DNA of 64,000 nt, taken from positions 6,260,501-6,324,500 of the forward strand of contig NC_011894.1 of the NCBI RefSeq assembly GCF_000022085.1, read 5' to 3'. Below, in pieces: positions 8,543 to 31,245 of the stretch; the stretch's first letter is position 1; every line of letters begins with the position of its first letter. Position numbers and translations under genes: made by a program. Source of the stretch: Methylobacterium nodulans ORS 2060 (GTDB lineage Bacteria; Pseudomonadota; Alphaproteobacteria; Rhizobiales; Beijerinckiaceae). The notes beneath the pieces were generated by a model. The model did not search any database and was not told the DNA's origin. It saw only the letters and a program-made list of their open reading frames with translations.

Positions 8543-8556
8543 TTGCGCTGGATCAA
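8543..8556. promoter_or_regulatory. FNR/FixK-type box upstream of the HAD-GH65 operon
   Basis: TTGCGCTGGATCAA matches TTGAT-N4-ATCAA at 8 of 10 positions. Read on the minus strand it is TTGATCCAGCGCAA. It lies in the gap before the HAD gene and points toward it. Confidence 0.6.
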
Positions 8557-8880
8557 GTTTGACCGGTTCACCGTCACGCTCAGCCCGATCGAGCTTTGAT
8601 CTTCCGCAAATGGCAAGCCCGAGATCGACTCTATCATGCAATGGGGGGGCAACGGCACGATACGAGGCGGGCGATGCGATCCATCGTAGTGTACTCCTCG
8701 CGGCCGAACGCGACCCATGCCGTGGTCACGGGTCGGAGTCGACGCTGCACGGCATCCGTTGCCGCTCTCCTTTGGGCCGCGCACGCTCTCATGCCTATGG
8801 CCACCCTGCGCAGCGCCCGTTTTGGCTGGCCAAAGCCCACTGGACAGACACCAAAGTGGCTGCCGCAGCAGCCAAACGTC
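8557..8880. other. Gap without a convincing gene
   Basis: These 324 bases lie between the HAD promoter box and the cytochrome c stop. Open frames exist on both strands but none shows a domain, a good ribosome site or sensible composition. Confidence 0.5.
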
Positions 8881-9219
8881 TCATCGCTCCAGACTGGCAA
8901 GATAGCGGATTACGTCCTCCATCTGGTCCGGGTCGAGCCGGAATTCCGGCATGCTCGGGTGTCCCGTCCGGATGCCCTCGGCCAGCGACTCGGCGAGGTC
9001 GGTCACTGGGTACCGAGTATGAAGATCCCGAAAGCGGGGCGCCTCTGCCAGCGGGCTCTCGCCCGTGCGCCCGACAGCGTGACAGCGGGCACAATGGACC
9101 TGAACGAAGGTGCGCCCGCGCTGGACATGGGGATCCTCGGCCGCCTTGGCCCACCCTGCGCAGAGGTTCAGGGCCGCGAGGAGCCCGGCCACGACCAGGG
9201 TTGAGGTGGGGTGGCGCAT
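8881..9219 (-). CDS. Small periplasmic c-type cytochrome
   Basis: 112 residues: a signal peptide (residues 1-26, LVVAGLLAALNLCAGWAKA), one heme-binding CARCH (residues 43-47) and a C-terminal methionine ligand in HPSMPEF, the layout of a class I monoheme cytochrome c. It should carry electrons in the periplasm. It lies just downstream of the Nramp gene but has its own FixK-type box about 76 bases upstream, consistent with use at low oxygen. Its redox partners are unknown. A broken relative is seen near 23.8 kb. Confidence 0.88.
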   Translation of the reverse strand: MRHPTSTLVVAGLLAALNLCAGWAKAAEDPHVQRGRTFVQVHCARCHAVGRTGESPLAEAPRFRDLHTRYPVTDLAESLAEGIRTGHPSMPEFRLDPDQMEDVIRYLASLER

Positions 9220-9288
9220 GGAGTCTCCCGCAGATCGCCAGCTGGTGGCCTAGATTCCCGAGAACCTCGCCCAGGTGCAAGCGTGGCG

Positions 9289-9302
9289 TTGATCCAGCAC
9301 AA
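9289..9302. promoter_or_regulatory. FNR/FixK-type box upstream of cytochrome c
   Basis: TTGATCCAGCACAA matches TTGAT-N4-ATCAA at 8 of 10 positions. Its centre is about 76 bases from the cytochrome ATG at 9219, in the gap after the Nramp stop codon. Confidence 0.55.
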
Positions 9303-9303
9303 A

Positions 9304-10647
9304 TCACGGCCAGGACGTCACGGCCATCCCAATGACCGCCAGCGCCATGACGGCAGTGGCGATCCAACCGAGCGCCTTCAGCCAGCCCCGTATCGCGAAG
9401 GATCCCATCACGTCAGGCCGGGCGGCAATCCGCATCATCACGGCCATCACTGGCACCGCAACGACGCCGTTCAGCACTGCGCTCCAGAACAGCGCCCGCA
9501 CCGGGTCGAGGCTGGGGGTCAGGCTGATCAGCATGCCGACCAGAGTGGCGAGCCCCACCACGCTGTAGAAGGCCTTGGCCTCCTGCACCCGCCGCGAGTA
9601 GCCGACCGGCCAGCGCCGGGCCTCCCCGACTGCGTAGGCTGAGGAGCCGGCAAGCACCGGCACGGCGAGCAGCCCCACCCCGACGACGCCGAGGGCGAAG
9701 ACCGCCTCGGCAAAGCGCCCCGCCACCGGCCGCAGGGCCGCGGCCGCCTCCGCGGAGGTGCGGATGTCCGTCGCCCCGTGGGCGTGGAGCGCCGCCGCCC
9801 CGGTACCGAGGATCGCCAGCGCCACCAGGTTCGACACCGCCATGCCGGTGAGGGTGTCGACCTCGATCCGATGCAAGGCCACCGCGCTCTGCTCGGGCGC
9901 GTGGACGAGATCGCGGCGGCGCGGGTGCACCCGCAGGTCCTCGGCTTCCTCGGAGGATTGCCAGAAGAACAGGTAGGGGCTGATGGTGGTCCCGAAAACC
10001 GCCACGACGGTCGTGAGCTCCTCCTGCCCCAGGCCAATCCGGGGCATCAGCACCCCGTGTGCGAAGGCGGCCCAGTCGACCTGCGTCGTCGCGAGCGCGG
10101 CGAAGTAGGCGAAGAGCGCGAGGGTGAGCCACTTCAGTACCGCGACGTAGCGCGTGTAGGCGAGGAGCATCTGCATGAGCACGCAGATCCCGGCGAAGAG
10201 CAGCACCAGGAGCCAGCGCGGTGATCCGGGCAGGAGGAGCGTGGTGGCATCCGCCATGGCGCCGAGATCCGCCCCGAGATTGGCTGTGTTGGCGACGAGC
10301 AACAGGACGACCGTGACCTGGAGCAGGCCGTTCGGGGCATGGCGCTGCAGCACGCCGGCGATGCCGTGCCCGGTTGTGCGGCCGATCCGGGCCGAGACCA
10401 TCTGCACGGCCGCCATCAGTGGATAGGTGTAAAGCAGCGTCCAGCCGAGCCTATACCCGAAGGCGGCTCCTGCCTGGGCGTAAGTGGCGATGCCACTCGG
10501 GTCGTCGTCGGAGGCGCCGGTGATGAGCCCAGGGCCGAGCACCTGCAGAAGCCGCGGCTTCGACGGTCCGACGACCGGGCTTGTCTCCTCGGGATCATCG
10601 TCTTGGACGCTGCTCTGCACCGCGAAGGACGAGACGATCCTGGACAT
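9304..10647 (-). CDS. Nramp-family-related divalent metal transporter
   Basis: 447 residues with about 11 predicted membrane helices, the Nramp/MntH fold. TM1 reads GLITGASDDDPSGIATY where canonical Nramps have DPGN, and TM6 reads GTTISPYLFFWQSSEEAED instead of the canonical MPH motif. The methionine that selects transition metals is therefore absent, which suggests a different ion (for example Mg2+ or Mn2+) or a divergent mechanism. The gene follows the YeeE-like gene by three bases, so they form an operon. The family call is firm; the substrate is open. Confidence 0.82.
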   Translation of the reverse strand: MSRIVSSFAVQSSVQDDDPEETSPVVGPSKPRLLQVLGPGLITGASDDDPSGIATYAQAGAAFGYRLGWTLLYTYPLMAAVQMVSARIGRTTGHGIAGVLQRHAPNGLLQVTVVLLLVANTANLGADLGAMADATTLLLPGSPRWLLVLLFAGICVLMQMLLAYTRYVAVLKWLTLALFAYFAALATTQVDWAAFAHGVLMPRIGLGQEELTTVVAVFGTTISPYLFFWQSSEEAEDLRVHPRRRDLVHAPEQSAVALHRIEVDTLTGMAVSNLVALAILGTGAAALHAHGATDIRTSAEAAAALRPVAGRFAEAVFALGVVGVGLLAVPVLAGSSAYAVGEARRWPVGYSRRVQEAKAFYSVVGLATLVGMLISLTPSLDPVRALFWSAVLNGVVAVPVMAVMMRIAARPDVMGSFAIRGWLKALGWIATAVMALAVIGMAVTSWP

Positions 10648-10650
10648 GGC

Positions 10651-11366: not shown

Positions 11367-11606
11367 TTAGCGCGCGAGCGAGACCTGTATGCGCGTCTGC
11401 TGAAGGGAGATGTCCTCCTCGGCAGCATCAATCGGCTGCATGGGACCGTGCGCCGCATGAGCCACGCGGGCCGCAATGGCCGCGTCAGAGAGCGCGACCT
11501 GGGCGCCCATCTCGGCCAGCGCTATAATGCCGACCAGACAGAGCCCGGTGGCCAAGCCGATCTCCGAAGCCCTGGCCCGCCATCCCCGGTGCTGCTGTTT
11601 GGCCAT
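11367..11606 (-). CDS. Small single-pass membrane protein, unknown function
   Basis: 79 residues with a basic N-terminus and one hydrophobic stretch (residues 17-34, IGLATGLCLVGIIALAEM). A strong ribosome site (GGGAGG, seven bases before the ATG) supports real translation. I do not recognise the family. Its upstream region shares a promoter module with the Crp/FixK-type gene (see 11647-11704), so the two are probably co-regulated. Confidence 0.6.
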   Translation of the reverse strand: MAKQQHRGWRARASEIGLATGLCLVGIIALAEMGAQVALSDAAIAARVAHAAHGPMQPIDAAEEDISLQQTRIQVSLAR

Positions 11607-11646: not shown

Positions 11647-11704
11647 TGACACTTGTATTAGGCGACCGTGCGATCACGTTCTAAACCGTAACACTGTGTG
11701 ACAG
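11647..11704 (-). promoter_or_regulatory. Promoter module shared with the Crp/FixK-type gene, copy 1
   Basis: Two blocks, CGCGTGACA and CGTAACA-N5-TGACAG, are separated by the same distance (the TGACA starts are 52 bases apart) as at 14998-15055, with an intervening GATC. Both copies lie 80-100 bases upstream of minus-strand genes. This looks like a common activator site plus core promoter. Confidence 0.45.
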
Positions 11705-11709
11705 GCCGG

Positions 11710-13731
11710 CTATTCGGCGCGGCTCTCCTCCTCGTTGGCGAGGACCGTGCGGAGCGCGCGGGCAAGATCAAGAAGCGTATAAGGCTTGCGCAGCCATTTC
11801 GCGTCTGTGATCTGACCCTGTTTCACGACGTCGGGCTCGGCGTATCCAGACGTGAACAGCACCTTCACGCTCGGCTTCCGCGCCAGTACCTGCTCGGCCA
11901 GATCCGCACCTGTCATGCCACCCGGCATGACAATGTCTGTGAACAGCAGATCAATCCCGGCTGTCTCCAACACGGACAAGGCGGCCGGGCCGTTTGCGGC
12001 TTCCAACACCCGATAGCCCAGCCCTTGCAGGCGCGACACCGTCACGCGCCGCACCCGCGTTTCGTCCTCGACTACCAAGACCGTTTCGCCCTGCCCCTGA
12101 TAGGCGTCCAGCCACGGCTCGGGAGCAGGCCCTTGCACCTCTGCCTCGTCACCAGCCGCATTCGGCAGATAGATCCGGACGGTGGTGCCGTGGCCGAGTT
12201 CGCTATAGAGCGCGACATGCCCGCCTGATTGCTTGGCAAAGCCGTAGACCATGGACAGCCCGAGGCCGCTCCCCGTGCCTACCTCCTTGGTCGTGAAGAA
12301 CGGTTCGAACGCGCGCTCCTGGACCTCCCTGGTCATGCCCGAGCCAGTATCCGTCACGGCGATCTGCACATAGCGCCCGATGCGCACCTCAGGATGCTGG
12401 CGTGCGTACTCGGCATCGATGTGGGTGTTCTCGGCGGCCAGAGTCAGCCGCCCGCCGTTCGGCATGGCGTCCCGCGCATTGATGGCTAGGTTCAGGATGG
12501 CGTTCTGCAGTTGGCTCGCGTCGACGCGAACCTTCCAGAGGTCCGCGTCGAGACGTGCTTTGACCTGGATGGTCTCACCCAATGTGCGGCGCAGAATGGG
12601 GGTGAGATCGGCAAACAGCTGCCCCACGTCGGTCAGGCGTGGACGCAGGGGCTGACGGCGTCCAAAAGCCAGCAGCCGCTCCGTCAGTTGCGCCCCATGC
12701 TCGGCCGTCTCGCGTGCTTCCTTGACGAGCTCCAACTGTCTGGGCTCACGGATCTGCGCCTCCAGCATCTCCAGGTTTCCCAAGATAACGGTGAGCAGAT
12801 TGTTGAAGTCGTGAGCGATCCCGCCGGTGAGTTGGCCCACCGCCTCCATCTTCTGGGCCTGCCGCAACTCCTGTTCGATCTTGCGGCTGGCGGTGAGATC
12901 ACGAATGAAGCCGGTGAACATAGGCCTGTCGCCGGCGCTGACCTCACCGACGGCGAGTTCCATCGGGAACACGGTACCATCCTTCCGTTGTGCGCTCACC
13001 ACACGGCCGATGCCGATGATCCGGCGCTCACCTGTGCGCAGGTAGCGCGCCAGATAGCCGTCATGCTCCTCGCGGTAGGGTGAGGGCATCAGCATGGCCA
13101 CGTTCTTGCCGATCACCTCGTCGGCGCTGTACCCGAACAGGCGCTCGGCGGACCGGCTGAACGAGTGGATGGCGCCATGCTCGTCAATGGTGATGAGCGC
13201 CTCGGGGGCAGTATCGAGAATGGAGCGCAGGCGAGCCTCGCGCTCGCGCAGTGCGGCTTCGGCCTGGTGGCTTCGGGTGATGTCGACGGCAGTCGAGATG
13301 CCGCCGACCACCGCCCCGGTCGCATCGCGCAGGGGTGAGGCATTGTAGAGCAGGTGCAGGGCGTGACCGTCACCCAGCCGCACATCTAACTCTTCTCCCC
13401 TGACGTCTTCACCGCGCATAGCGCGTTGCAGTGGGTCGTCCGCCGGGGCGAGCTCATGACCATCTCTGTAGAGGTGCAAAGCCTGCCGCTTATCCACGCT
13501 TCCTGCCGCAAAACCTAGATCTTCGCCCGGAGGTGCGCCGAGAAGTTCTGCGGCGAAGCGGTTGGAGTGGACCTCACCAAGCTCAGGATCGTAGCTGAAC
13601 CAGACAGCAATCGGGGCCGTATCCACGATAGCCTCCAACTCGGCCGTGCGGGCCCGCAGTGCCTCCTCGGCAGCCAGCCGAAGCTGACGGGCCTCCGTGT
13701 TTGCCGAACCTCCTGTTCTCGTGCCTGCCAT
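11710..13731 (-). CDS. FixL-like heme-PAS hybrid histidine kinase with receiver
   Basis: 673 residues. Order: PAS 1 (about 30-155), PAS 2 (about 165-285), HisKA with phospho-acceptor His307 in GGIAHDFNN, HATPase (N-box [12 protein letters not shown]-boxes DTGSGM and [10 protein letters not shown]), and a C-terminal receiver (about 549-670, Asp599 in [10 protein letters not shown], Lys649). PAS 2 closely resembles the oxygen-sensing heme PAS of FixL: EEHDGY places His223 at the proximal heme ligand and RRIIGIGR places Arg243 at the oxygen-gating arginine. No transmembrane segment is seen, so it is a soluble oxygen sensor. It probably feeds the Crp/FixK-type regulator or the OmpR-type regulator nearby. 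Heme binding is inferred, not shown. Confidence 0.87.
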
Positions 13732-13816: not shown

Positions 13817-14164
13817 TCAGGCGTAAACGTGAGGGCGATCGGCGCCGGCCCAGTCCCGTGCTCCAATCGCTCTTCGCTGAGGGCGCCTGCCTGGCAGCGC
13901 TTTCGCCAGCTGGAAAACGTAGAAGCCGTTCATGTTCATGCCGAGATCAGCGGCTTTTGCATCGAATCCCGTGCGGCGCAGCGAGGATTCGTCGAATGCA
14001 CCGGCGAGTTCCCAGTCTGATCCGGCAATGAAGACGGGCACCGGATAGCATTCCAGGACGGCAAAGCACAGATCGGGCGCCGAACGACGGCGGAACAGGT
14101 TGTAGCGTGGACGGCATTCCAGAGCTGCCCCAGGTTTGAGGCTGTTCCGCTTGCTCGCAGGCAT
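13817..14164 (-). CDS. Conserved-looking small protein, unknown function
   Basis: 115 residues, Arg-rich at both ends, with a central hydrophobic strand pattern (LCFAVLECYPVPVFIAGSDWELAGAF) that suggests a small folded domain. It lies between the Crp/FixK-type gene and the heme-PAS kinase on the same strand, so it may belong to that signalling operon. I do not recognise the family and see no catalytic motif. Confidence 0.5.
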   Translation of the reverse strand: MPASKRNSLKPGAALECRPRYNLFRRRSAPDLCFAVLECYPVPVFIAGSDWELAGAFDESSLRRTGFDAKAADLGMNMNGFYVFQLAKALPGRRPQRRAIGARDWAGADRPHVYA

Positions 14165-14200: not shown

Positions 14201-14944
14201 TCAATGTGCGCTGGCCATCCGCGGGCAGCCGGTAAAACCGTCGTCCTCATCGAACTCGCCGGTGAGCTCCTGAAGGAACTGCATGCGCCGAAGGCGTATG
14301 GTGCGCTGAACCACCGGAGCGATCAGGCCGTCGCGCTTGAACTTGGACATGATCCGGCTGACGGTCTCAAGCGTCAGGCCCAGGAAGTCCGCAATGTCGC
14401 GGCGGGTCATCGGCAGCTGGATCTGAACCGGGGATTTCAGGTCGGCGCCCGTCCGCTGGGCGACGGTGACGAGGAACGTGGCGACACGCTCCTCGGCCGT
14501 TTTGCAGCCCAGCATGATGATGTGCGCCTGCGCAGCGCTCACCTCGGCTTGGATCATGGCCAGGAGCTGAGGACGCAGTTCGTCCGAGCGGTCGACCTCG
14601 GCGTGGAAGGCACGTCGGTCGATCCGGCGCAGCCTGACCGGGGTGACGGCTTCGGCGGAGCAGTCATGGCGGCTTCCGACGGCCACACCGACAACTGCTC
14701 CCGCATAGATGAAGCCCGTGACGACACGGCGACCATCGGGCAGGATCCGGCACAGGCGCAGGCATCCCTCTGCTAATTCGAAGACCTCCCGGGCAGCCTC
14801 ACCCTGCCAGAACACCGTCTCGCCGGCCTCGAAGCTCTCGACCGGACGGCCCAGGAAAATGCTCGCCAGGGTGGGACGCCCAAGCACGGCCGGAGGGGCG
14901 GAGGTCCCGGTGCGAATGGTTGCGGTCTGGCTGAGGGGGTGCAT
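14201..14944 (-). CDS. Crp/Fnr-family regulator (FixK-like)
   Basis: 247 residues: an N-terminal cyclic-nucleotide-like beta barrel (about 30-150, FEAGETVFWQGEAAREVFELAEGCLRL), a dimerisation helix, and a C-terminal winged helix-turn-helix (TRRDIADFLGLTLETVSRIMSKF) characteristic of FixK/FnrN/Crp. The N-terminal cysteine cluster of true Fnr is not seen, so it fits a FixK-type protein controlled by expression. The ATG at 14944 has a GGGAG ribosome site; frame extension to 15232 is unsupported. Such proteins bind TTGAT-N4-ATCAA boxes, eight of which occur in this window. It is divergent from the OmpR-type gene. Confidence 0.87.
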   Translation of the reverse strand: MHPLSQTATIRTGTSAPPAVLGRPTLASIFLGRPVESFEAGETVFWQGEAAREVFELAEGCLRLCRILPDGRRVVTGFIYAGAVVGVAVGSRHDCSAEAVTPVRLRRIDRRAFHAEVDRSDELRPQLLAMIQAEVSAAQAHIIMLGCKTAEERVATFLVTVAQRTGADLKSPVQIQLPMTRRDIADFLGLTLETVSRIMSKFKRDGLIAPVVQRTIRLRRMQFLQELTGEFDEDDGFTGCPRMASAH

Positions 14945-14997: not shown

Positions 14998-15055
14998 TGA
15001 CAGCCGTAGCCGCCTTGCGTGGGATCGTGTGGAGCTGCGTAACAGTTTGTGACAG
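14998..15055 (-). promoter_or_regulatory. Promoter module shared with the 79-residue gene, copy 2
   Basis: Partner of 11647-11704: CGCGTGACA and CGTAACA-N5-TGACAG with 52-base spacing between the TGACA starts and a GATC between them. It lies in the divergent region between the Crp/FixK-type gene (starting at 14944) and the response regulator at 15204. Confidence 0.45.
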
Positions 15056-15203: not shown

Positions 15204-15941
15204 GTGAGCGAGCCACCGCACATTCTGATCACGGACGATGATCCTCGAATCCGCCAGATGCTGTCACGTTATCTTGAGAGCGAGGGCTTTCGGGTCAGCA
15301 CGGCCGAGAGCGGAACAGCGATGCGTAAGGCTCTCGCCTCCGAGAAGATCGATCTTGTCCTGTTGGATCTTGTCCTAGCCGGAGAGGACGGACTTGAACT
15401 GGCTCGCGAAATCCGTGCGTCCTCTCGGGTCGGCATCATCATGGTCACAGGCCGATCCGATATAATCGACATGGTGGTTGGCCTGGAGGTCGGGGCGGAC
15501 GACTACATTGCAAAACCGTTTCAGCTTCGGGAAGTCCTTGCGCGGACGCGGAGTGTTCTCCGACGGCTGCAGCCGAGTGCATCGACGGAAACCGCCAAGG
15601 CTGTTGGGCCTTCATCCCGAGCGGAAGTGATCGGATTTGAAGGTTGGCGCCTCGATATTAGCCGTCGCGAACTGATGTCGCCAGAGGGTCAGGAGGTTCC
15701 TCTTACGACGGGTGAGTTTGACCTGCTCGCCGCGATGGCCAAGCACCCGGGCCGGGTTCTCAGCCGTGACATGCTGATGGATCTGACACGCGGAAGGGAG
15801 TGGGATGCGCTGGACCGCTCCATTGACGCGCAGGTTGTGCGTCTCCGCCGCAAGCTTGAGGCAGATCCGAAGAACCCTAAGTTGATTAAATCGGTTCGTG
15901 GTGCTGGCTATGTGTTCGCAGGTCGGATTGAACGAATGTAG
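15204..15941 (+). CDS. OmpR/PhoB-family response regulator
   Basis: 245 residues. The receiver is at residues 5-118 (acidic pocket DDD, phospho-acceptor in LVLLDLVL, Lys in IAKPF); the winged-helix DNA-binding domain is at about 140-242 (TTGEFDLLAAMAKHPGRVLSRDMLMD and IDAQVVRLRRKLE). The start is the GTG at 15204, preceded by GGAGGAGG. It is divergent from the Crp/FixK-type gene and close to the heme-PAS hybrid kinase, so it is a candidate partner of that kinase. The conserved module at 14998-15055 in the shared promoter region is a possible binding site. Confidence 0.88.
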   Translation: MSEPPHILITDDDPRIRQMLSRYLESEGFRVSTAESGTAMRKALASEKIDLVLLDLVLAGEDGLELAREIRASSRVGIIMVTGRSDIIDMVVGLEVGADDYIAKPFQLREVLARTRSVLRRLQPSASTETAKAVGPSSRAEVIGFEGWRLDISRRELMSPEGQEVPLTTGEFDLLAAMAKHPGRVLSRDMLMDLTRGREWDALDRSIDAQVVRLRRKLEADPKNPKLIKSVRGAGYVFAGRIERM

Positions 15942-21088: not shown

Positions 21089-23503
21089 TCAGGCAGGCGC
21101 CACTTGGCTTTCGGGCCGGACGGCTTCGGCGCTGGCGAGGCCGTGGTACAGTTCGTCCTCCTGCGCAAAGTGGAGCCGTAGTATGGCGTCGAGCCCGTAG
21201 AGCACGCGCCGAAAGTCGTTCAGCGCAGACAACTCGATGCCGTCGGGTGGCAACTCCCCCACCATCCGGGTCAGCACGCTCCCCAGTTCCTGCACCTCGC
21301 GATGGGTTCGGTGCATCGCCGCAATCGGGTCGTCGCCCCCGAGCGCCCGCTCGATGCGCGGATAGAGCTGAAGGTCATCCTCGCGCTCGTGCCGCAGAAG
21401 CCGTTCGCGCACGAGGCTCTCGACCTCTCTCAACGCTGTAACCGTCTCGTCAGACGGCAGCGTTGCCAACTGGTCCGCGACCGCGCGCAGCTGGGCGAGA
21501 GGGCCGATGAGGCGCTCGTGCTCCTCCTTCAGGCGCGTGACCTCCGCAGGTGGAAGGCTGACCTGAGGACGCCCGGGAATGCGGACCCGCAGCACCCGGA
21601 GCGCGTTGAGAATGGCGGCGACGTCGATGGCCTCCTGCAGCAGAGCTCCGGCCACGGGCGGAAGGAGCCCGAGAGCAGCCACGACCATGGCTGCGATGGA
21701 CAGTCCCATGCCGATCCAGACGCTCTGGAGAGCAATCCGACGGGCCCCTTGAGCGATGGCAAGCGCGTCTGCCAAGCGGTCGAGACGGTCGACCAGGAGG
21801 ACGACGGACGCAGCCTCCGACGAGGCACCCGAGCCACGCGCGCCCATGGCGATCCCGATATCGGCGGCGGCCAGAGCGGGGGCGTCGTTCACGCCGTCAC
21901 CGACCATGGCGCAGATCCCCTGCGTCTTCGCCTCGGCAATGGCCGCGAGCTTGTCCTGCGGCTGCTGCTCGGCCCGGACCTCGTCCACGCCGAGAGCTGA
22001 TCCGATCCGCTCGGCGACGTCGTGCCGATCGCCGGTCAGCATCACGACACGGCCGATGCCGGCCCGGCGCAGCAGGCGCAGGGCCCGGGCGGAATCCGCG
22101 CGGATCTCGTCGGCGAGCAGGATCGCGCCGAGCATCCGGCCCTCCGCGGCGACGAAGACGCCCGTTGCTCCCTCATAGCCCATGCGCCTCAGGAAGCGCC
22201 CGCTCCAATCGGACTGCCCGGCCCGGGCCGAGACGTAGGCGTAGCTCCCCACCGAAACGCACCGGCCCTCCAGGTTGCCTGTCAGACCCGCACCGGGCTC
22301 CTCTTCCACATTCGTCGGGAGGCACAACTCCAAGCCGCGGCGACGGGCCGCCGCGACGACAGCCTCGGCGATCACGTGCTGGGAGAGTTGGTCGAGGCTC
22401 GCAGCGACCCGCAGGACCTCGTCGCTCGCCACTCCCGTCTCCGTCTCGACGGCAACCACCCGGGCTTGGCCGCCGGTCAGCGTACCGGTCTTGTCCAGGT
22501 AGAGCGTCCGCAACCGCGCCAGTTGCTCCAGCGCACCGCCGCCCTTGACCAGCACGCCACGTCCGGCGCAACGCGACAGGCCCGAGACGATAGCGACGGG
22601 CACAGCGAGGATCAGCGGACAGGGCGTGGCAACGACCAGGACGGCGAGACCACGCACCGGGTCTCCGCTCCAGGCCCAGGCAGCGCCGGCGAGGGCGATC
22701 GCCAGCGGCGTGAACACGAAGGCGGCTCGATCGGCGAGGCGGGCCGATGGCGCTTTGGCTTCCTGCGCGGCTTGGACGAGGCGGACAATGCCGGCGAAGG
22801 TGCTGTCGGCCGCGCTGGACGTTGCGGTCATGTCGAACGGGGCGCCGGCATTGATGCTGCCGCTGCGCAGACGCTCGCTCCGGGCCCGCGTCACAGGCAG
22901 CGACTCACCCGTCAGAGCCGCCTCGTCGAGCACGGCCGTGCCTCCGCTCACGATGCCATCGACGGGAACTGTCTCTCCCGCTCGCACGAGGAGGCGGTCC
23001 CCGGCTCGCACGCTCTCGAGCGGCACAGCCTTGAGCTGCTCTGCCTCGTAGAGGTTTGCCGTTCTCGGCACGCGAGCGAGGAGTGCGGACATTTCCCGGC
23101 GCGCCCGCGCATCGGCGAAATCCTCCAGTGCCCGGCCGCCCGAGAGCATCAGTCCGATGACGGAAGCGGCGACGTATTCGTGAAGCAGGAGGGCCCCGCC
23201 GATGGAGACCAGTGCGATGATGTCGAGCCCAACCTCTCGCCGCAGCAGGCTCGCGGCGCTGTCGGCCAGGACGGCGACGAGCACCGGCACGGTACCGGCC
23301 AGGAACAGCCAGGCTGCCCAGTCATCCTGGTGCAGCCCTCGTGCCACCAGTCCGGCGGCCAGTCCCGCAAGAGCGAAGGCCAGCAGTGCGAGATCCAGGA
23401 TGCGCTTGTGCTCGGCCATGACCGGAGTTGGCTCCACCTTGACAGATGATCCCTGACCGCCTCCGCCCCGCATCTCCTGTTCCGGGCGCAAGTCCAGCGG
23501 CAT
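21089..23503 (-). CDS. P1B-5-type metal ATPase with C-terminal hemerythrin domain (Nia-like)
   Basis: About 804 residues from the ATG at 23503. Heavy-metal P-type ATPase core: TGESLPV, the TM6 motif TPCPLILA (the TPC signature of P1B-5 pumps, Ni/Fe/Co exporters), DKTGTLT, and MVGDGVNDAPALA. After the last membrane helices (about residue 640) a four-helix hemerythrin-like domain follows, with metal-ligand-like residues EEHERLI, LLRHEREDD..YPRIE, MHRTHREV and LRLHFAQEDELYH. This domain could sense oxygen or iron. No N-terminal metal-binding domain is seen. A FixK-type box about 41 bases upstream of 23503 would place the transcript start at that ATG, so the true start may be 23473 or 23419. Confidence 0.88.
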   Translation of the reverse strand: MPLDLRPEQEMRGGGGQGSSVKVEPTPVMAEHKRILDLALLAFALAGLAAGLVARGLHQDDWAAWLFLAGTVPVLVAVLADSAASLLRREVGLDIIALVSIGGALLLHEYVAASVIGLMLSGGRALEDFADARARREMSALLARVPRTANLYEAEQLKAVPLESVRAGDRLLVRAGETVPVDGIVSGGTAVLDEAALTGESLPVTRARSERLRSGSINAGAPFDMTATSSAADSTFAGIVRLVQAAQEAKAPSARLADRAAFVFTPLAIALAGAAWAWSGDPVRGLAVLVVATPCPLILAVPVAIVSGLSRCAGRGVLVKGGGALEQLARLRTLYLDKTGTLTGGQARVVAVETETGVASDEVLRVAASLDQLSQHVIAEAVVAAARRRGLELCLPTNVEEEPGAGLTGNLEGRCVSVGSYAYVSARAGQSDWSGRFLRRMGYEGATGVFVAAEGRMLGAILLADEIRADSARALRLLRRAGIGRVVMLTGDRHDVAERIGSALGVDEVRAEQQPQDKLAAIAEAKTQGICAMVGDGVNDAPALAAADIGIAMGARGSGASSEAASVVLLVDRLDRLADALAIAQGARRIALQSVWIGMGLSIAAMVVAALGLLPPVAGALLQEAIDVAAILNALRVLRVRIPGRPQVSLPPAEVTRLKEEHERLIGPLAQLRAVADQLATLPSDETVTALREVESLVRERLLRHEREDDLQLYPRIERALGGDDPIAAMHRTHREVQELGSVLTRMVGELPPDGIELSALNDFRRVLYGLDAILRLHFAQEDELYHGLASAEAVRPESQVAPA

Positions 23504-23537: not shown

Positions 23538-23551
23538 TTGCTCTGGATCAA
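23538..23551. promoter_or_regulatory. FNR/FixK-type box upstream of the P1B-5 ATPase
   Basis: TTGCTCTGGATCAA matches TTGAT-N4-ATCAA at 9 of 10 positions; on the minus strand it reads TTGATCCAGAGCAA. It lies just upstream of the hemerythrin-ATPase gene. Confidence 0.65.
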
Positions 23552-23884: not shown

Positions 23885-24265
23885 TCAGGCCGCCCGACAA
23901 TGGCCGGGCGCCAACCCGGCGATGGTCTGCATCACGGTCCTCTTGTCGATCAGACGATCGAGAACGGGCACATCCGTGAACGTGCGTGGCACCGGAACAC
24001 TGCCGGCGATCAGCGCGAAGGGAATTCCCCGCTGGCGAAGAACGCGGGCCAGCGGGAAGCAAGGGCCCTGATTCAGATCGACGCTGACGATGGCGACGCT
24101 GGGTCGCGTCCGGCCCAAGCTCTCGACCGCATCGGCGCAGGTTCCGTACGGGCCGCTGATCGTGCAGCCAGCATCGGTCAAGAGATCCTCCAGCCACATG
24201 CCCGGGAGTGCCTGAGGCTCCGCGATCAGCACAACGGGCTGAGATTCCGCATGATTTTCCTGCAT
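23885..24265 (-). CDS. Stand-alone receiver-like protein
   Basis: 126 residues with a receiver fold: VVLIAEPQALPGMWLEDLLTDAG (beta1-alpha1), the Asp-containing VAIVSVDLNQG at the phospho-acceptor position, and a beta4 strand IPFALIAG. The acidic pocket is reduced to one Glu (AEP instead of DD) and the usual Thr/Ser and Lys are unclear, so it may be a pseudo-receiver. There is no output domain. A perfect FNR/FixK box lies 63 bases upstream of the start, a spacing typical of class II activation. It is divergent from the APH/P-loop kinase. Confidence 0.68.
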   Translation of the reverse strand: MQENHAESQPVVLIAEPQALPGMWLEDLLTDAGCTISGPYGTCADAVESLGRTRPSVAIVSVDLNQGPCFPLARVLRQRGIPFALIAGSVPVPRTFTDVPVLDRLIDKRTVMQTIAGLAPGHCRAA

Positions 24266-24479: not shown

Positions 24480-26054
24480 ATGCGGGACGAGAGCCAGATC
24501 GAGACCGTGGACTTCCTCCGGCGCTGCCTTGCCGGTCACGGCAGGCTCGAGACGATCCGCACGCACATCTCCGTCGTGCTCCTGGCGGAGGATCGCGTGT
24601 ACAAGCTCAAGCGCGCGGTGCGCTTCCCCTTCGTCGATTTCTCGGCGCCGGAGGCGCGGCTGGCGGCCTGCGAGGCCGAGCTCGCCCTCAACCGCCGCAC
24701 GGCGCCCACCCTGTATCGCGGGGTGCACCGGATCACGCGGACGCCGGACGGGGGGCTCGCCCTCGACGGCACCGGACCCCTGGTCGACGCGGTCGTGGCG
24801 ATGCGGCGCTTCCCGCAAGGTGACCTGTTCGACGCCATGGCCCGGGAGGGGCGGCTCACCCCCGCCCTCGTCGCCGCTCTCGCCCACCGCATCGCCGCCT
24901 TCCACGCCGCCGCGGAGATCAGCCGCGCCCATGGCGGTGCGGCCGCCATGGCGGCCCTCGTCGCCGTGAACGACCGGGCCCTGCGGGCCTGCGGGCTCGC
25001 AAGCGCCGGTGAGGCCGACGCCCTCACGGCCCGCTTCGAGGCCGCGCTCGCCCGGCACGGCGACCGGCTGGAGGCGCGGCGCGCCGCCGGCAAGGTGCGC
25101 CGCTGCCATGGCGACCTGACGCTGCGCAACATCTGCCTGTACGAGGGGGTGCCGACGCCGTTCGACTGCCTCGAATTCGACGAGGCCCTCGCCACGATCG
25201 ACGTGCTCTACGACCTCGCCTTCGTGCTGATGGATCTGTGGCATCGCGGCCGGCGCGACCTCGCGAACCTGCTGTTCAACCGCTACCTGGACGAGAGCGA
25301 CGAGGCGGATGGCGCCGGCCTGCTGCCCTTCCTGATGGCGACCCGCGCCGTCATCCGCGCGCATGTCACGGCGACCCAGGCGGCGGAGGCGCCCGGCGAG
25401 GCTGCCCGTGCGCTGCGGGACGAGGCGCGGGCCTATCTCGATCTCGCCGGCACCCTGCTCGCCGAGGAATCCGCGACCCTGGTGGCGGTCGGGGGCCTGA
25501 GCGGATCCGGCAAGTCGACCTTCGCCGCCGCGCTCGCGCCCTGGCTCGGCGCCCCGCCCGGGGCGCGCATCGTGAGCAGCGACCGCACGCGCAAGCGCCT
25601 GCACGGCGTCAGCGCCGTGACGCGGCTCTCCGACTCGGCCTATGCGCCCTCCGTCTCCGAACGGGTCTATGCGGCGATGCGCGACGAGGCGGCCCGGGTG
25701 CTCGCCACCGGCGGCGCAGTGATGCTCGATGCGGTCTTCGATCGTTTCGAGGCACGGGAGGCCGTCGAAGCGCTGGCACGGCGGTGCGGCGTCCCCTTCC
25801 GGGGGGTGTGGCTGCAGGCGCCCGCGGCGATGCTCGCCGCCCGCATCCGCGCCCGGCGGGACGATCCCTCCGACGCCACGATCGAGGTCCTTGCCGCGCA
25901 GGCCAGCCGCGACTGCGGCCCGCTGACGTGGCATCGCCTCGACGCGCGGCTGCCGGCGGAGACGCTGCGCGCGGTGATCCTGGCGGGCTGCGGCACCGAC
26001 GCGGCGCGGGCGGCGAAAGCCGCCGGTGGCGGGGCCGCGGAGGATCTCGCCTGA
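24480..26054 (+). CDS. Bifunctional APH-like kinase / P-loop kinase (Rv2004c-like)
   Basis: 524 residues. The N-terminal half has aminoglycoside-phosphotransferase-like features (YKLKRAVRFPFVDF, the Brenner-type motif CHGDLTLRNICLYEG and FDCLEFDEALATIDVLYDLAF). The C-terminal half is a P-loop kinase domain with Walker A VGGLSGSGKST and RIVSSDRTRK. The same two-domain layout occurs in M. tuberculosis Rv2004c, a member of the DosR dormancy regulon. The natural substrate is unknown; drug resistance is not implied. A perfect FNR/FixK box is about 150 bases upstream. The ATG at 24480 follows a GAGGACC ribosome site. Confidence 0.82.
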   Translation: MRDESQIETVDFLRRCLAGHGRLETIRTHISVVLLAEDRVYKLKRAVRFPFVDFSAPEARLAACEAELALNRRTAPTLYRGVHRITRTPDGGLALDGTGPLVDAVVAMRRFPQGDLFDAMAREGRLTPALVAALAHRIAAFHAAAEISRAHGGAAAMAALVAVNDRALRACGLASAGEADALTARFEAALARHGDRLEARRAAGKVRRCHGDLTLRNICLYEGVPTPFDCLEFDEALATIDVLYDLAFVLMDLWHRGRRDLANLLFNRYLDESDEADGAGLLPFLMATRAVIRAHVTATQAAEAPGEAARALRDEARAYLDLAGTLLAEESATLVAVGGLSGSGKSTFAAALAPWLGAPPGARIVSSDRTRKRLHGVSAVTRLSDSAYAPSVSERVYAAMRDEAARVLATGGAVMLDAVFDRFEAREAVEALARRCGVPFRGVWLQAPAAMLAARIRARRDDPSDATIEVLAAQASRDCGPLTWHRLDARLPAETLRAVILAGCGTDAARAAKAAGGGAAEDLA

Positions 26055-26582
26055 CCGCGGACCCTCTCGCTTCCGGGCGGAGCCGCGTCAGCCGCGAGGA
26101 TTCGCGGATGCCCCCGGCCCGGCGCCCGGGACCAGCCGCGCGGCGGCCCGCGCGATCGGCAGTTCCTCGTTCGCCGGCACGACATAGACCGCTACCGGGG
26201 ATCCGTCGCGGCTGATGCAGCCTCGCCCGGCCGCGTTGCGCTCCTCGTCGAGCTCCACCCCCGCGAAGGACAGGCCAGCGGCGATCGCGGCCCGGACCCG
26301 CGGCGCGTGCTCGCCGATGCCGGCCGTGAAAACGATGAGGTCGAGGCCGCCGAGCGCGGCCATGAGAGAGCCGGCCTCGCGCACCGCCCGGTAGGCGAAG
26401 AGGTCGAGTGCTTCCGCGGCCCGCGGGTCGCCGGATTCCTGGAGCACCCGCACGTCGTCGCTGAGTTCGGAGACGCCGAGGAGGCCGGAGCGGTTGTTGA
26501 GGAGGTCGGCCACAGCAGCGGGATCCAGGCCGCGCTCGAGGATGAGGTGAAGCACCAGCCCCGGATCGACGGCACCGGAGCG

Positions 26583-28001
26583 GTAATTACCCACGGGGTG
26601 CGCGCGAGCGCGGCGTGACCCACAAGCGAGGCCGCTAGAGGGAGTTCGCCGCGCCTCTTGCCGGGAGGCGATTTGGCTGATTCCCTCGTGGGATGGGCCG
26701 CAGCGAGCTGGAACGCCTGAGCAAGCAGGAGCTGATCGAGCTGGTGCTGCGGCTGCAGCGCCCCGAGAAGACCTCGCGCACCTCGTCCAAGCCGCCCTCG
26801 ACCGACCGCAAGGAGCGGCGCGAGCAGGCCAAGCCCGGCGGCGCCAAGCCGGGTCACGAGGGACATAGCCGAACGCTCAGCCCCGATCCCGACGAGATCG
26901 TCGCTCACCGCCCGGGTCACTGCCCCTGCTGCGGAGGTGTTCTGGCTCCGGATCTGCCGGCCGAGATCGTCAGCGTGTGCGAGCAGATCGACTTGCCCGC
27001 GGTGGCACCGATGGTCACCCAGCATCAACGGCTCGCCGTCCGCTGCCCGGCTTGTGGCACGCGCGTCGTCGCTCCAGTGCCGCAGGCCGCACGCGGCACG
27101 CCGTTCGGCCCGCGCCTGCACGCGGTGGCGGTGTATCTGAAGACCTTCCAGGCTCTGTCCTACGAGCGGCTGCAGGCCGCGTTGTCGGACCTGTTCGGGC
27201 TCACCTTGAGCCAGGGCGGGCTGATGAACCTGCTGCGTCGGGCCCAGAGGCAGTTCCGTGCCGATCGCGAAGCTGCGGTCTCGGCGCTGCGCCGGGCCGC
27301 GGTAGTCGCCTCGGATGAGACCGGCGTGCGCATCGAGGGCAGCAACTCGTATCATTGGGTGTTCCGCTCGGACGCAGCGGTCGTTCATCACGCGGCCTCG
27401 ACGCGGGCCGCCGCGGTGGTGCACGCGATGATGGACGGACACCGGCCGTCCGTGTGGCTGTCGGACCGCTACACCGCCCAGCAGGGCCACGGTGAGCATC
27501 ACCAGACCTGCCTGGCGCATTTGGCCCGTGACGTCGCCTACGCGGTCGAGGTCAGCGACGACCCCGTGCCGCTGCGCCTACAACTCTGGCTGGGAAGCGT
27601 GTTCAGCCTGGCCGAGCGCGTCACCGACCTGGCCGCCTCGACGCTCTCGGCCAAGCGCCGGGCCCTGGATCGGCAGCTGTCCGCCATCCTCGCTGCACCA
27701 AGCCGCTGCGATCTGACCCGCGCTCTGCAAGCCAAGATCGGCCGAGCCCGCGACCAGCTCCTGGTCTTCCTCGACCATCCCGGCCGCGTGGCGGTCACCA
27801 ACAACGCTTGCGAGCGCGCGCTGCGCCCGGCAGTGGTGCAGCGGAAGGTGACGAACGGCTATCGGGCCATGTGGGCGGCCGCGGGTGAGGCGGACGTGCG
27901 CACCGTCGTCGACACGGCCCGCCTCTCGGGGGCCGGCACCTTCGCCACTATCCTCAACATCATCCGCGCCTGATCCTACCGCCACGGGCGTGGGTAATTA
28001 C
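26583..28001 (+). mobile_element. IS66-family element inserted in ackA
   Basis: Inverted ends GTAATTACCCACG and complement, the GTAA start typical of IS66, are flanked by the 8-bp target duplication CCGGAGCG at 26575-26582 and 28002-28009. It carries a single transposase gene and no tnpA/tnpB, as in the ISBst12-like subgroup. The clean duplication and intact gene imply a recent insertion. Confidence 0.92.
26693..27973 (+). CDS. IS66-family (ISBst12-type) transposase
   Basis: 426 residues: an N-terminal leucine-rich coil (SKQELIELVLRLQ), a Lys/Pro-rich linker, a zinc-finger-like cluster (HCPCCGGVL and CPACGTRVV), then the DDE core with VVASDETGVRIEG, a central DRYTAQQ segment and VTNNACERALRPAVVQRKVTNG near the end. 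Full length with no frame break, so likely active. It runs opposite to ackA. Confidence 0.9.
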   Translation: MGRSELERLSKQELIELVLRLQRPEKTSRTSSKPPSTDRKERREQAKPGGAKPGHEGHSRTLSPDPDEIVAHRPGHCPCCGGVLAPDLPAEIVSVCEQIDLPAVAPMVTQHQRLAVRCPACGTRVVAPVPQAARGTPFGPRLHAVAVYLKTFQALSYERLQAALSDLFGLTLSQGGLMNLLRRAQRQFRADREAAVSALRRAAVVASDETGVRIEGSNSYHWVFRSDAAVVHHAASTRAAAVVHAMMDGHRPSVWLSDRYTAQQGHGEHHQTCLAHLARDVAYAVEVSDDPVPLRLQLWLGSVFSLAERVTDLAASTLSAKRRALDRQLSAILAAPSRCDLTRALQAKIGRARDQLLVFLDHPGRVAVTNNACERALRPAVVQRKVTNGYRAMWAAAGEADVRTVVDTARLSGAGTFATILNIIRA

Positions 28002-28707
28002 CCGGAGCGGGTGCCCATCATCAGCCCGTCGAGGGCCGTGAAGCCCATCGTGGAGGCGATGCTCCGCCGCGCCCGCATGGCGCAGAGGCTGGCCCCGTGC
28101 CCGAGATGGGCCACGATCACGCGGCCCTCCGCCCGCTCGCCCGCGAGCTCCGGCAGCGTCTCGGCGACATGCTGGTAGGAGAGTCCATGGAAGCCGTAGC
28201 GGAGGATGCCCGCGTCGGTGAGCGCCCGCGGGATCGGGAAGAGCTGCGCCAACCGCGGCTGCGTGCGATGGAAGGCCGTGTCGAAGCAGGCGACCTGCGG
28301 CAGGTTCGGCCAGGCCGCCGCCACCGCCCGGATGGCCGCGAGGTTGTGGGGCTGATGCGCCGGGGCGAGGGGCACGAGCCGCTCGAGCGCATCGAGGACC
28401 GCGCCGTCGATCAGGACGGGGGCGGCGTAGTCCCGCCCGCCATGCACGACCCGGTGTCCCGCCGCCCGCAGGACGAGGTCCGGCATGCGCCGGACTGCAT
28501 CGAGAAGCCACGCGATGGCGGTCGCGTGGTTGCTGCCCTCCGGCGGCGGGGCCCCGGTCGCGAGCCGGACCGGACCCGACGCCTCCACGGCGACCGGGCC
28601 GCCGAGACCGGAGACGCCGCCCCGGCACAGCAGCGCCAGCGAGCCGGCCGCGTAGAGGGCGAATTTCAGGCTCGACGAGCCCGCATTGATCGCCAGGATC
28701 GCATCGC

Positions 28708-28893
28708 TCATACGGCGGCTCCTACGGGACCCGCGGCGGCTCCTGCCGGCGCCGCGGCGGCACCGGCCCGGTGCACGAAGAGCTGGGCGAGCGCACAGGA
28801 AGCCTCGCGCACCTCGGCGCTGTCGGATCGGCTCGTCAGGATGATCGGCACCCGCGCCCCGAGGATCAGCCCGGCCGCATCCGCGCCGCCTGA
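28708..28893 (-). pseudogene. Phosphate acetyltransferase (Pta/Ptb type), C-terminal remnant
   Basis: The frame ending at 28708 reads LSGGADAAGLILGARVPIIL then TSRSDSAEVREASCALAQLF, the C-terminus of a phosphate acetyl/butyryltransferase. Only about 60 residues remain; the preceding sequence belongs to a phasin-like protein, so a deletion joined the two. The stop overlaps the ackA ATG. A full Pta would have linked acetyl-CoA with acetyl-phosphate. Confidence 0.72.
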
Positions 28894-29259: not shown

Positions 29260-29273
29260 TCGACGCAGATCAA
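29260..29273. promoter_or_regulatory. FNR/FixK-type box upstream of the phasin-pta-ackA remnants
   Basis: TCGACGCAGATCAA matches 8 of 10 positions; on the minus strand it reads TTGATCTGCGTCGA. Its centre is 60 bases from the phasin ATG, about the same spacing as at the receiver gene. Confidence 0.55.
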
Positions 29274-29321: not shown

Positions 29322-30062
29322 TCATGCCGCCGGCGCACTGCCCTGATTAGCATCCTGCGTGGACAGCAGGACGAGGCCCGACATCGGATCGACCCAGGTC
29401 AGGTCGTCGCGCAGGCCGACGACCCCCGGCACCGACTCGGCCGCTGCGTGGATCGCGGCGCGCTGCCGCTCGTCCGTGAGGGAGCCGCGCAGCGTGACAA
29501 TGCCGTTCGTAACCGAGACCTCAATCAGCTCCAGCGGAATGAACCCCGCATCGAGGAAGGCCGCCTCCACGTCGGCGCGGATCGCGGCATCGTTCCGCGG
29601 CGGCGCCTCGCGCGCCTGCTCTAGCGCCCGGCGCAGGGCACGCAGGAGATCCGCCCGTGTGACGATCCCAATCATCCGCCCCTTGTCGACAACCGGCACC
29701 CGCTTGATGCGGCGCCGCGCCATCAGGTCGACGATCTCGTCGAGCGGCGTGTCCGGCGACGCGGTCACAACCTCCTTCGTCATCACGTCGCCAACCTGCC
29801 GCCCCCGCTCCCGCGCGTACGCTTCGGCCAGCCGGCCCGGACTGATCAGGTATTGAACCCAGTTCGGCTTCGGGCGGGCCGTGCCGAGCTCCGGGCGGGC
29901 GAGAAGATCCCCTTCGGTCACGATGCCGATGACCGCGCCGTCCGGATCGAGGACGGGCAGCCCGCTGATCCGCTTCTCCAGCATGAGGGCAACCGCCAGC
30001 TCCAGGGGGAGGTCGGCCCTGACGCCCGTTACCTCTTCGGTCATGATGTCGCGCGCGCGCAT
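29322..30062 (-). CDS. CBS-pair plus BON domain protein
   Basis: 246 residues: two CBS motifs (about 5-60, RDIMTEEVTGVRADLPLELAVALMLEKRISGLPVLDPDG; and about 95-150, GDVMTKEVVTASPDTPLDEIVDLMARRRIKRVPVVDKGR) followed by a BON domain (about 165-230). CBS pairs bind adenine nucleotides and report energy state; BON domains bind membranes or other macromolecules. The ATG at 30062 has a GGAGGCGACG ribosome site and lies downstream of a near-perfect FixK box; the longer open frame to 30377 would put the box inside the gene. CBS proteins such as Hrp1 also belong to the DosR regulon. Confidence 0.82.
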   Translation of the reverse strand: MRARDIMTEEVTGVRADLPLELAVALMLEKRISGLPVLDPDGAVIGIVTEGDLLARPELGTARPKPNWVQYLISPGRLAEAYARERGRQVGDVMTKEVVTASPDTPLDEIVDLMARRRIKRVPVVDKGRMIGIVTRADLLRALRRALEQAREAPPRNDAAIRADVEAAFLDAGFIPLELIEVSVTNGIVTLRGSLTDERQRAAIHAAAESVPGVVGLRDDLTWVDPMSGLVLLSTQDANQGSAPAA

Positions 30063-30137
30063 CGTCGCCTCCGCCACTGGCCTGCTGCTCCGATCGGGCA
30101 GCCCGGCGAACTTTAGGAGCTGCGGTCGAAACGCGGC

Positions 30138-30151
30138 TTGATCTGGATCAT
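30138..30151. promoter_or_regulatory. FNR/FixK-type box upstream of the CBS-BON gene
   Basis: TTGATCTGGATCAT matches 9 of 10 positions. Its centre is about 82 bases upstream of the CBS-BON start at 30062. Confidence 0.7.
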
Positions 30152-30263
30152 ATTGCGGCGCCGGGCTCATAGCTTCTGACGGATGCCTGGCGCCGACCGG
30201 TTGGCACGTGTCCGGGCTGGGCGGGCTCGCGACAGTCACACCGCAACCCCTGTTTAGTGGGGC

Positions 30264-30277
30264 TTGCGCGAGATCAA
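30264..30277. promoter_or_regulatory. FNR/FixK-type box upstream of the universal stress protein
   Basis: TTGCGCGAGATCAA matches 8 of 10 positions. It lies about 97 bases upstream of the UspA-like start at 30368, in the divergent region with the CBS-BON gene. Confidence 0.6.
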
Positions 30278-30367
30278 AGCCCGACGCCGCAGACACGGCA
30301 TCATCGCGGTCGGTGCGGGATATGGGCCCGTCGGAACGGGCACCGTGCTGGGGAAGGCAGCGTCGCG

Positions 30368-31210
30368 ATGATTGCATCGATCAAGAGCGTCCTCATCGGC
30401 GTGACGGAGTCCATCGGCTCGCAGGGACCCTCAGCGGCGCTCGCCTATGGCTTCTCCCTGGCCCAGCAGGCCGAGGCCCACGTCAGCGTGCAGGCGATGG
30501 CGGTGGACATCGTCGTGCCGAATGCCTGGATCAGCGGATTCGCGGACTCGCTCGCCGCTGCCGAGAACCGACGGCTCAAGAGCCTGGCCGAGACTGTGGC
30601 AGAGCGGGCGCGGGCCGATGCGTCGGCAGCCGGCCTGCGCTGCACCGCACGGGCGCGGCACCTCACCGCGAACGAGCTCTTCGGGAGCCTCGCCGCCCAG
30701 GCGCGCATCCACGACGTCACCGTGCTCGATGCGGAGCCGAATTTCGTCGCGGTGCGGCGCGGCCTGATCGAGGATCTGATCCTCTATAGCGGTCGCCCCC
30801 TGCTGGTCGTCCCGCCGGCCGCGGAGGCGTTCACGGCGGAGCGGATCGTAGTCGCCTGGGACGGCAGCGCCCCCGCGGCGCGCGCGGTCGGCGATGCGCT
30901 GCCCTTCCTGCGCTGCGCCCGCGAGGTCCACGTCGTGACGGTCACCGGAGAGAAGGACCTCTCGGAGACGGTTCCCGGCGCCGAACTCGGCCCATATCTC
31001 GCGCGCCACGGCGTGCCCGTCACGATCGTGGACCTGCCGATGGAGGAGGGGAGCGTCGCCGAGACGCTGCGGCGCCACGCGATCCTGTCCCGCGCCGACC
31101 TGATGGTGGCGGGCGGCTTCGTGCATGCCCGCCTGCGCGAGATGGTGCTCGGCGGGGTGACGGAGGCGCTCCTCACCGCCTGCCCGGTGCCCCTGCTCCT
31201 CTCTCATTGA
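30368..31210 (+). CDS. Tandem universal stress protein (UspA family)
   Basis: 280 residues with two Usp-like halves: a degenerate first (about 1-150) and a second (about 155-280) beginning RIVVAWDGSAPAARAV and ending MVAGGFVHARLREMVLGGVTEALL, which resembles the GxxGxxxxxxxxGSxxxxxx ATP-binding signature but lacks the second serine. Usp proteins act in cytoplasmic stress survival, often at low oxygen. The ATG at 30368 follows GGAAGG. The gene is flanked by FixK-type boxes on both sides and precedes the phosphoketolase on the same strand. Confidence 0.83.
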   Translation: MIASIKSVLIGVTESIGSQGPSAALAYGFSLAQQAEAHVSVQAMAVDIVVPNAWISGFADSLAAAENRRLKSLAETVAERARADASAAGLRCTARARHLTANELFGSLAAQARIHDVTVLDAEPNFVAVRRGLIEDLILYSGRPLLVVPPAAEAFTAERIVVAWDGSAPAARAVGDALPFLRCAREVHVVTVTGEKDLSETVPGAELGPYLARHGVPVTIVDLPMEEGSVAETLRRHAILSRADLMVAGGFVHARLREMVLGGVTEALLTACPVPLLLSH

Positions 31211-31231
31211 GGTGCCCGATAACGACGGGCG

Positions 31232-31245
31232 GTGATCCACATCAA
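31232..31245. promoter_or_regulatory. FNR/FixK-type box upstream of phosphoketolase
   Basis: GTGATCCACATCAA matches 9 of 10 positions of TTGAT-N4-ATCAA and lies about 84 bases before the phosphoketolase ATG at 31323. Confidence 0.68.

Follow-up and report, generated by a model that had tools for sequence, protein, structure and literature searches.

Predicted FixK/FNR-type boxes and an apparent hFixL-FxkR-FixK cascade in a candidate hypoxia island of Methylobacterium nodulans ORS 2060

We analyzed a stretch of 64,000 nucleotides (nt) from Methylobacterium nodulans ORS 2060, hereafter the window, which corresponds to C7:6260501-6324500. The genome comprises 8,839,022 bases on 8 contigs, of which C7 is the chromosome and C5 is plasmid-sized; coordinates refer to the window unless a contig or a fetched locus (L-number) is named. 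The initial annotation had proposed an oxygen-controlled regulon marked by eight FNR/FixK-type boxes. Using the pattern TTGAT-N4-ATCAA, scored by mismatch count (≤1 or ≤2), we recovered all eight at the positions reported and found an additional intergenic site, missing from that list, at 8596. The sites are interspersed with genes for a HAD-family hydrolase, a cytochrome c, a heavy-metal P-type ATPase (P1B-5), a kinase-like AAA_33 protein, a CBS-BON protein, a universal stress protein (Usp) and a phosphoketolase (Table 1). The FixK-type regulator and the FixL-like sensor that had been placed in the window were both found, together with a third regulator, of the FxkR type, and K-boxes, none of which the initial annotation had listed.

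Table 1. Regulators, K-boxes, predicted FixK/FNR-type boxes and neighboring genes in the window
Feature	Coordinates	Strand	Remarks
hFixL-type hybrid kinase	11710..13731	-	PAS, FixL-like heme PAS, kinase, C-terminal receiver
FixK-type Crp/FNR regulator	14201..14944	-	247 aa
FxkR-type OmpR-family response regulator	15204..15941	+	
K-box GTAACAGTTTGTGACA	15039..15054	+	between fixK and fxkR
Second K-box GTAACACTGTGTGACA	11688..11703	+	just behind hfixL
79-aa open reading frame, hydrophobic stretch	11367..11606	-	downstream of second K-box; no Pfam match
FixK/FNR box TTGCGCTGGATCAA	8543..8556		130 nt before HAD gene; TTGCG class
Additional box TTGATCTTCCGCAA	8596..8609		TTGCG class
Weaker box TTGATCCAGCACAA	9289..9302		69 nt before cytochrome c gene
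Box TTGCTCTGGATCAA	23538..23551		118 nt before P1B-5 ATPase gene
Perfect box TTGATGCAGATCAA	24322..24335		between 23885-24265(-), 56 nt away, and kinase gene (+), 144 nt away
Weak box TCGACGCAGATCAA	29260..29273		no intact gene close downstream
Box TTGATCTGGATCAT	30138..30151		60 nt before CBS-BON, 216 nt before Usp
Box TTGCGCGAGATCAA	30264..30277		90 nt before Usp
Box GTGATCCACATCAA	31232..31245		59 nt before phosphoketolase
HAD-family hydrolase	7675..8412	-	GH65 gene 5345-7678 behind
Cytochrome c	8881..9219	-	
Heavy-metal P-type ATPase (P1B-5)	21089..23419	-	C-terminal hemerythrin domain
AAA_33 (kinase-like) protein	24480..26054	+	
CBS-BON protein	29322..30077	-	
Universal stress protein (Usp)	30368..31210	+	
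Phosphoketolase	31305..33821	+	

The box at 24322 matches the pattern perfectly, those at 23538, 30138 and 31232 carry one mismatch, and those at 8543, 9289, 29260 and 30264 carry two. By match to the pattern, 23538, 24322, 30138 and 31232 are strong candidate sites, 9289 is plausible but weak, and 29260 is weak. The sites at 8543, 8596 and 30264 share the form TTGCG-N4-ATCAA, which occurs three times in the intergenic DNA of the region, was absent from the intergenic DNA of a chromosomal background sample (two coding matches) and recurs in 3 further intergenic cases in eight stretches that had been picked for other boxes. TTGCGC half-sites are also found among published FixK2 targets of Bradyrhizobium diazoefficiens, as given in part of PMC9104804. 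A similar distance to the start codon, ~60-97 nt, had been noted for several boxes, and five of the eight do lie 56-90 nt from the called start; the boxes before the HAD gene (130 nt) and the P1B-5 gene (118 nt) lie farther out, and 29260 lacks an intact gene nearby on its downstream side. The perfect box of the proposed receiver/kinase pair is present, but the supposed receiver, 23885-24265, has no Pfam match.

To compare the region with the rest of the chromosome, 40 evenly spaced 20-kb stretches of C7 (800 kb; 140,296 intergenic bases) were sampled, with genes called by a rough two-class hexamer model of our own in place of a curated whole-genome annotation. The tested region, 8401-31310, has 22,910 bases, 4,466 of them intergenic. 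It holds 9 intergenic sites with ≤2 mismatches, that is, the eight and 8596, and a single coding one (24068); in the sample, 25 such sites are intergenic and 141 are coding. The intergenic expectation for the region is 0.80 (Poisson P ~2e-7; intergenic versus coding, Fisher P ~1e-6), in agreement with the earlier claim that the boxes recur in promoter positions beyond chance. At ≤1 mismatch, the region has 4 intergenic sites and no coding site, and the sample has no intergenic site and 4 coding ones. Each of the 19 other permutations of TTGAT gave at most 2 intergenic matches (≤2 mismatches) in the region. The whole window contains 21 sites with ≤2 mismatches, compared with 6.67 +- 2.59 in 100 shuffles, although three of the 21 (39761, 40169 and 40577) are copies within one tandem repeat. 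Genome-wide, 141 sites with ≤1 mismatch were found versus 14 for the reversed pattern, a tenfold difference. An equal density of boxes in coding or unrelated DNA, which would speak against a regulon, was not seen in the 800-kb chromosome sample.

The same motif was found at oxygen-related genes elsewhere on the chromosome. Within C7:2.21-2.24 Mb, a perfect box (L070:11082) precedes ccoN (called start 11193), and another (L070:14904) precedes a FixL-FixJ pair, with a 148-aa open reading frame (ORF) in between. CcoN and FixJ scored above their NCBIfam cut-offs, and FixL had the FixL model as its best match but stayed below the cut-off (588/850 bits). By its placement, the motif is the genome's own predicted FixK/FNR box. 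The genome also contains near copies of several island genes: Usp, phosphoketolase and P1B-5 on C5 (94-98%; L324, C5:440001-459000), the kinase on contig C1 (94%; L072, C1:290001-310000) and CBS-BON at C7:2.438 Mb (83%; L325, C7:2420001-2440000). Upstream of the C5 Usp copy (94%), both boxes are retained at 216 and 90 nt, the second with unchanged half-sites and a different spacer. The C5 P1B-5 copy (98%) is preceded by two boxes, 164 and 290 nt away, and the chromosomal CBS-BON paralogue by one at 65 nt.

The three regulators lie together within the box-bearing region. The PAS domain of hFixL contains a histidine stretch, and its conserved residues presumably have a role in heme binding. This stretch is conserved in the alignment of residues 167-278 to the FixL heme domain (8js5). 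For the FixK-type regulator, the best solved relative is FixK2 (4i2o), with which it shares the recognition helix TLETVSR (FNR-type E..SR); an N-terminal iron-sulphur cysteine cluster is absent from the 247-aa sequence, in which cysteines occur singly. It scored below the curated cut-off of its best match, the Caulobacter-based model NF050806 (165/300 bits), as did the other FixK-like proteins of the genome. The FxkR-type regulator is 65% identical to a regulator on a Sinorhizobium meliloti plasmid. We searched for the K-box consensus GTNACA-N4-GTNACA, taken from the accessible parts of PMC4999443 and PMC7888657, and found 3 matches in the genome (8.84 Mb) and 0 in the control. Two of them are inside the window, one between fixK and fxkR and one just behind hfixL; the third is at C7:3985875. 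A FixK/FNR box with ≤2 mismatches was not found between fixK and fxkR in the window. Between fixK and hfixL lies a 115-aa ORF (13817-14164) without a Pfam match, which has homologues at the same place in L119 and L095 (42%) and L099 (54%).

We then asked how constant this arrangement is among FxkR homologues, using a set of 100 distinct sequences; rows that contained a stop, aligned over a short length or duplicated another sequence had been removed. Microvirga terrestris L119 is missing from this set, presumably because it is identical to L095. Among homologues with at least 52% identity, 31 of 35 had a divergent FixK gene and a K-box (≤1 mismatch) upstream. Below 52% identity, FixK was found in 1 of 65 and a K-box-like site in 18 of 65, and the K-box alone is therefore less discriminating than a FixK neighbor. 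In a quick tree of 72 of 101 rows (identity ≥43%), the window's FxkR fell in a set of 35 rows marked 96*, 27 of which have FixK and one of which is FxkR9 of Rhizobium johnstonii 3841, identified as pRL90026 in part of PMC7888657; long-branched Azospirillum rows are also in that set, and the FixK label does not form one clade (6 changes).

Within the family, we surveyed 199 genomes, that of M. nodulans included, and examined the best 29 loci of other genomes for each gene. FixK (E ≤ 1e-40) was detected in 22 of the 198 other genomes, and the nine genus-mates listed are not among the 22; fixK is therefore an accessory trait here. In 23 FixK loci from family relatives (3-4 kb fetched), an FxkR-type regulator was present in 19 and an exact K-box in 12. 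In other family genomes holding both genes, FixK lay within 20 kb of CBS-BON in 5 of 10, of the kinase in 3 of 10, of P1B-5 in 1 of 10 and of phosphoketolase in 1 of 8; CBS-BON and phosphoketolase were never this close (0 of 17). One locus, L330, carries homologues of FixK, hFixL, FxkR, cytochrome c, Nramp and P1B-5, and a perfect box lies close to the cytochrome c and Nramp genes of this locus. The box before CBS-BON was widely retained: a site with ≤1 mismatch was found upstream in 22 of 29 relatives versus 3 of 203 windows elsewhere in these loci, with the far edge of the box 51-75 nt from the start in 20 of the 22, and permuted half-sites gave at most 1 of 29.

The layout resembles cascades described in Rhizobiaceae. 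According to the portions of PMC7888657 and PMC4999443 available to us, Rhizobium etli and R. leguminosarum/johnstonii 3841 have, like the window, a hybrid FixL, an FxkR gene divergent from fixK with a K-box between them, and target genes with TTGAT-N4-ATCAA boxes. The window proteins are 59% (regulator) and 43% (FixK) identical to those of pRL9, which carries FixK, FxkR and a PAS kinase plus kinase, Usp and CBS-BON homologues. On pRL9, hfixL stands beside another fixK copy, whereas the window has a single fixK-hfixL-fxkR cluster with a second K-box behind hfixL and lacks a FixK/FNR box (≤2 mismatches) in the gap that separates fixK from fxkR. Plasmid islands of S. meliloti (CP050513.1 and NZ_CP141214.1) likewise combine a PAS kinase, FixK and a divergent regulator with a K-box. 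They lie near Usp, BON and P-type ATPase genes, and that of NZ_CP141214.1 also near CBS, phosphoketolase and YeeE genes; several genes of these islands have boxes upstream. Their gene order differs from that of the window, and identities are 64-65% for the regulator, 41-43% for FixK and 58-59% for hFixL.

The boxed genes had been thought to be otherwise unrelated. By annotation name, however, they largely belong to published FixK/FNR core regulons: in the parts of PMC2908626 that we drew on, the predicted alphaproteobacterial FixK core includes phosphoketolase, a CBS protein, cytochrome c, a kinase and FixL, and the predicted FNR core includes Usp and a heavy-metal P-type ATPase. This likeness is one of annotation names, and HAD-GH65 and Nramp were not among the genes seen in those parts. 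The same excerpts cite FixK2 dependence for the kinase and CBS genes of B. japonicum and FixK dependence for the phosphoketolase and cytochrome c genes of Rhodopseudomonas palustris, and assign a well-conserved FixK regulon to the Rhizobiales group that contains Methylobacterium. In B. diazoefficiens, the FixK2 regulon, as far as it appears in sections of PMC9104804 and PMC6515984, resembles the island in having a boxed phosphoketolase-acetate kinase operon, Usp, a CBS protein and a HAD hydrolase, and the microoxia tables there hold Usp, CBS and phosphoketolase proteins. FixK2 is under FixLJ in that species, whereas the cascade adjacent to the island genes in the window is hFixL-FxkR.

We consider it highly probable that the boxes are sites for FixK/FNR-type activators and that the stretch is a hypoxia island which encodes the cascade controlling it. 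When oxygen is low, the heme-PAS hybrid kinase hFixL would signal to FxkR, FxkR would bind the K-box at 15039 and raise fixK, and FixK would bind the boxes and activate CBS-BON, Usp, phosphoketolase, the kinase, the metal ATPase, cytochrome c and HAD-GH65. Each step of this cascade has a characterized counterpart, and it is from such relatives that we infer oxygen sensing and phosphotransfer by hFixL, promoter activation, and a role for the local FixK as the main binder. The oxygen-controlled regulon proposed at the outset is the best reading by sequence, with the boxes at ccoN and FixL-FixJ, the conserved CBS-BON box and the paired Usp boxes of the plasmid paralogue in its support. Genes that seemed unrelated would then form one known low-oxygen program.

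A number of observations weigh against this reading and bear on its alternatives. When 98 chromosomal sites were placed at random, at least four fell within some 22.7 kb in 1,133 of 5,000 trials; that is, about a quarter of the placements yielded a comparable cluster somewhere on the chromosome. This trial used ≤1-mismatch sites, 107 of the genome's 141 (four mismatch classes), and the same sites form three clusters on the chromosome (2.210-2.239, 2.425-2.439 and 6.284-6.292 Mb) and one on contig C1. Clustering alone is weak evidence and was not taken as proof. That the boxes are chance matches in AT-richer intergenic DNA nevertheless appears extremely improbable: the region was compared with other intergenic sequence from C7, permutations of the half-site stayed at or below two matches, and the CBS-BON box is conserved. 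A chance origin was rejected on the shuffles, the intergenic sample and the Poisson and Fisher tests. Conservation was poor for three other targets, with a box in 2 of 29 kinase orthologues (other windows 3/258), 1 of 28 P1B-5 orthologues (2/299; one of the 29 loci was dropped for a short upstream sequence) and 2 of 29 phosphoketolase orthologues (3/303). Of the four targets followed across the family, only CBS-BON (22 of 29) thus keeps its box, and the kinase, P1B-5 and phosphoketolase boxes may be local additions. The pRL9 island of R. johnstonii has an annotated kinase gene (L199:28012) with a one-mismatch box just upstream, at 27955. Two near copies within the genome also lack a box within 400 nt, namely the C5 phosphoketolase copy (94%), in which a 3-nt deletion in the spacer destroyed it, and the C1 kinase copy. 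A P-type ATPase gene just upstream of the latter has two boxes ~320 and ~390 nt out.

The genome further encodes other FNR/FixK-type proteins with the same helix, and the boxes could work and yet be served mainly by FnrN-like proteins, which have a cysteine cluster, or by FixK paralogues under the FixLJ of the 2.2-Mb region, leaving the local FixK minor or redundant. There are 13 Crp-family matches in the genome. Besides the local FixK, at least four have the helix TLETVSR or TIETVSR, and in two of these, which appear to be identical copies encoded over a megabase apart (L084 and L085; C7:4.00 and 5.10 Mb), cysteines cluster near the N terminus. FNR and FixK regulons also overlap in the published work, as presented in part of PMC2908626. 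Set against this, fixK, fxkR, hfixL and the K-box are all inside the box-bearing stretch, and FixK keeps close to CBS-BON in half of the family genomes that hold both. We regard a minor role of the local FixK as possible but the less probable case, and some sharing of the sites with the genome's other FNR/FixK proteins is to be expected. It is rather unlikely that all eight boxes are functional. The two in doubt, 29260 and 9289, are both intergenic, which speaks for them together with the perfect box that L330 has by its cytochrome c and Nramp genes, but 29260 has both of its mismatches in the same half-site and faces degraded DNA in which an IS66-type element has split the acetate kinase gene. 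Of the nine intergenic sites, six or seven are probably functional, and 29260 likely is not.

The system is already of a type described in related bacteria; mildly new are its occurrence outside Rhizobiaceae and the second K-box behind hfixL. The origin of the hFixL-FxkR-FixKf cascade has been put in the Rhizobiaceae ancestor, according to the part of PMC4999443 at hand. We found the arrangement of FixK, an hFixL-type kinase and an FxkR-type regulator outside that family in Microvirga terrestris (L119), Devosia (L128 and L129) and Methylocystis (L127), and these loci argue for a wider spread of the predicted cascade, although the Devosia and Methylocystis FixK proteins are just 35-38% identical to that of the window. 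Among the titles listed in searches that covered subscription journals thinly, none was on an hFixL-FxkR-FixK cascade in either Methylobacterium or Microvirga. Microvirga terrestris (L119) and L329 also have a K-box-like site (≤1 mismatch) behind hfixL. Compared by eye with the ORFs at that place, the 79-aa ORF of the window has a similar plan and weak similarity to a 72-aa ORF in L119 and no clear match in L329, and homology is not claimed. In known systems, FixT acts on FixL as a feedback component. We tentatively consider, as a speculative extension, that hFixL, FxkR and FixK form a hypoxia cassette which did not arise as an invention of Rhizobiaceae but is common across the Rhizobiales at large and may be mobile. 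Outside Rhizobiaceae, this cassette would have acquired another FxkR target, the small membrane protein encoded behind hfixL, which would have its own K-box and perhaps exert a FixT-like feedback on hFixL. The second K-box is in any case a small, testable candidate for a new target.

Several minor features were noted in the window. The initial annotation had listed phasin-pta-ackA remnants at 29260; a split acetate kinase gene is indeed present in the stretch that this box faces, and a phasin or pta piece was not identified by search. The acetate kinase gene (26088-28711) is interrupted by the IS66-type element, which has 14-nt inverted ends. Two full-length acetate kinase matches are present elsewhere, at C7:6993008 and C7:458886, and the former sits behind two perfect boxes (6991713 and 6991733). 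A second, shorter CBS-BON protein is encoded just behind phosphoketolase (33945-34541, minus strand). At 4427-5146, a 239-aa ORF, in which peptidase M41 is the sole domain, adjoins a LysR-type regulator gene (3386-4279). A long ORF at 38662-42156 runs over DNA with a 408-nt period, which also contains minus-strand ORFs at 39085, 39493, 39901 and 40309 and accounts for three repeated chance matches to the box.

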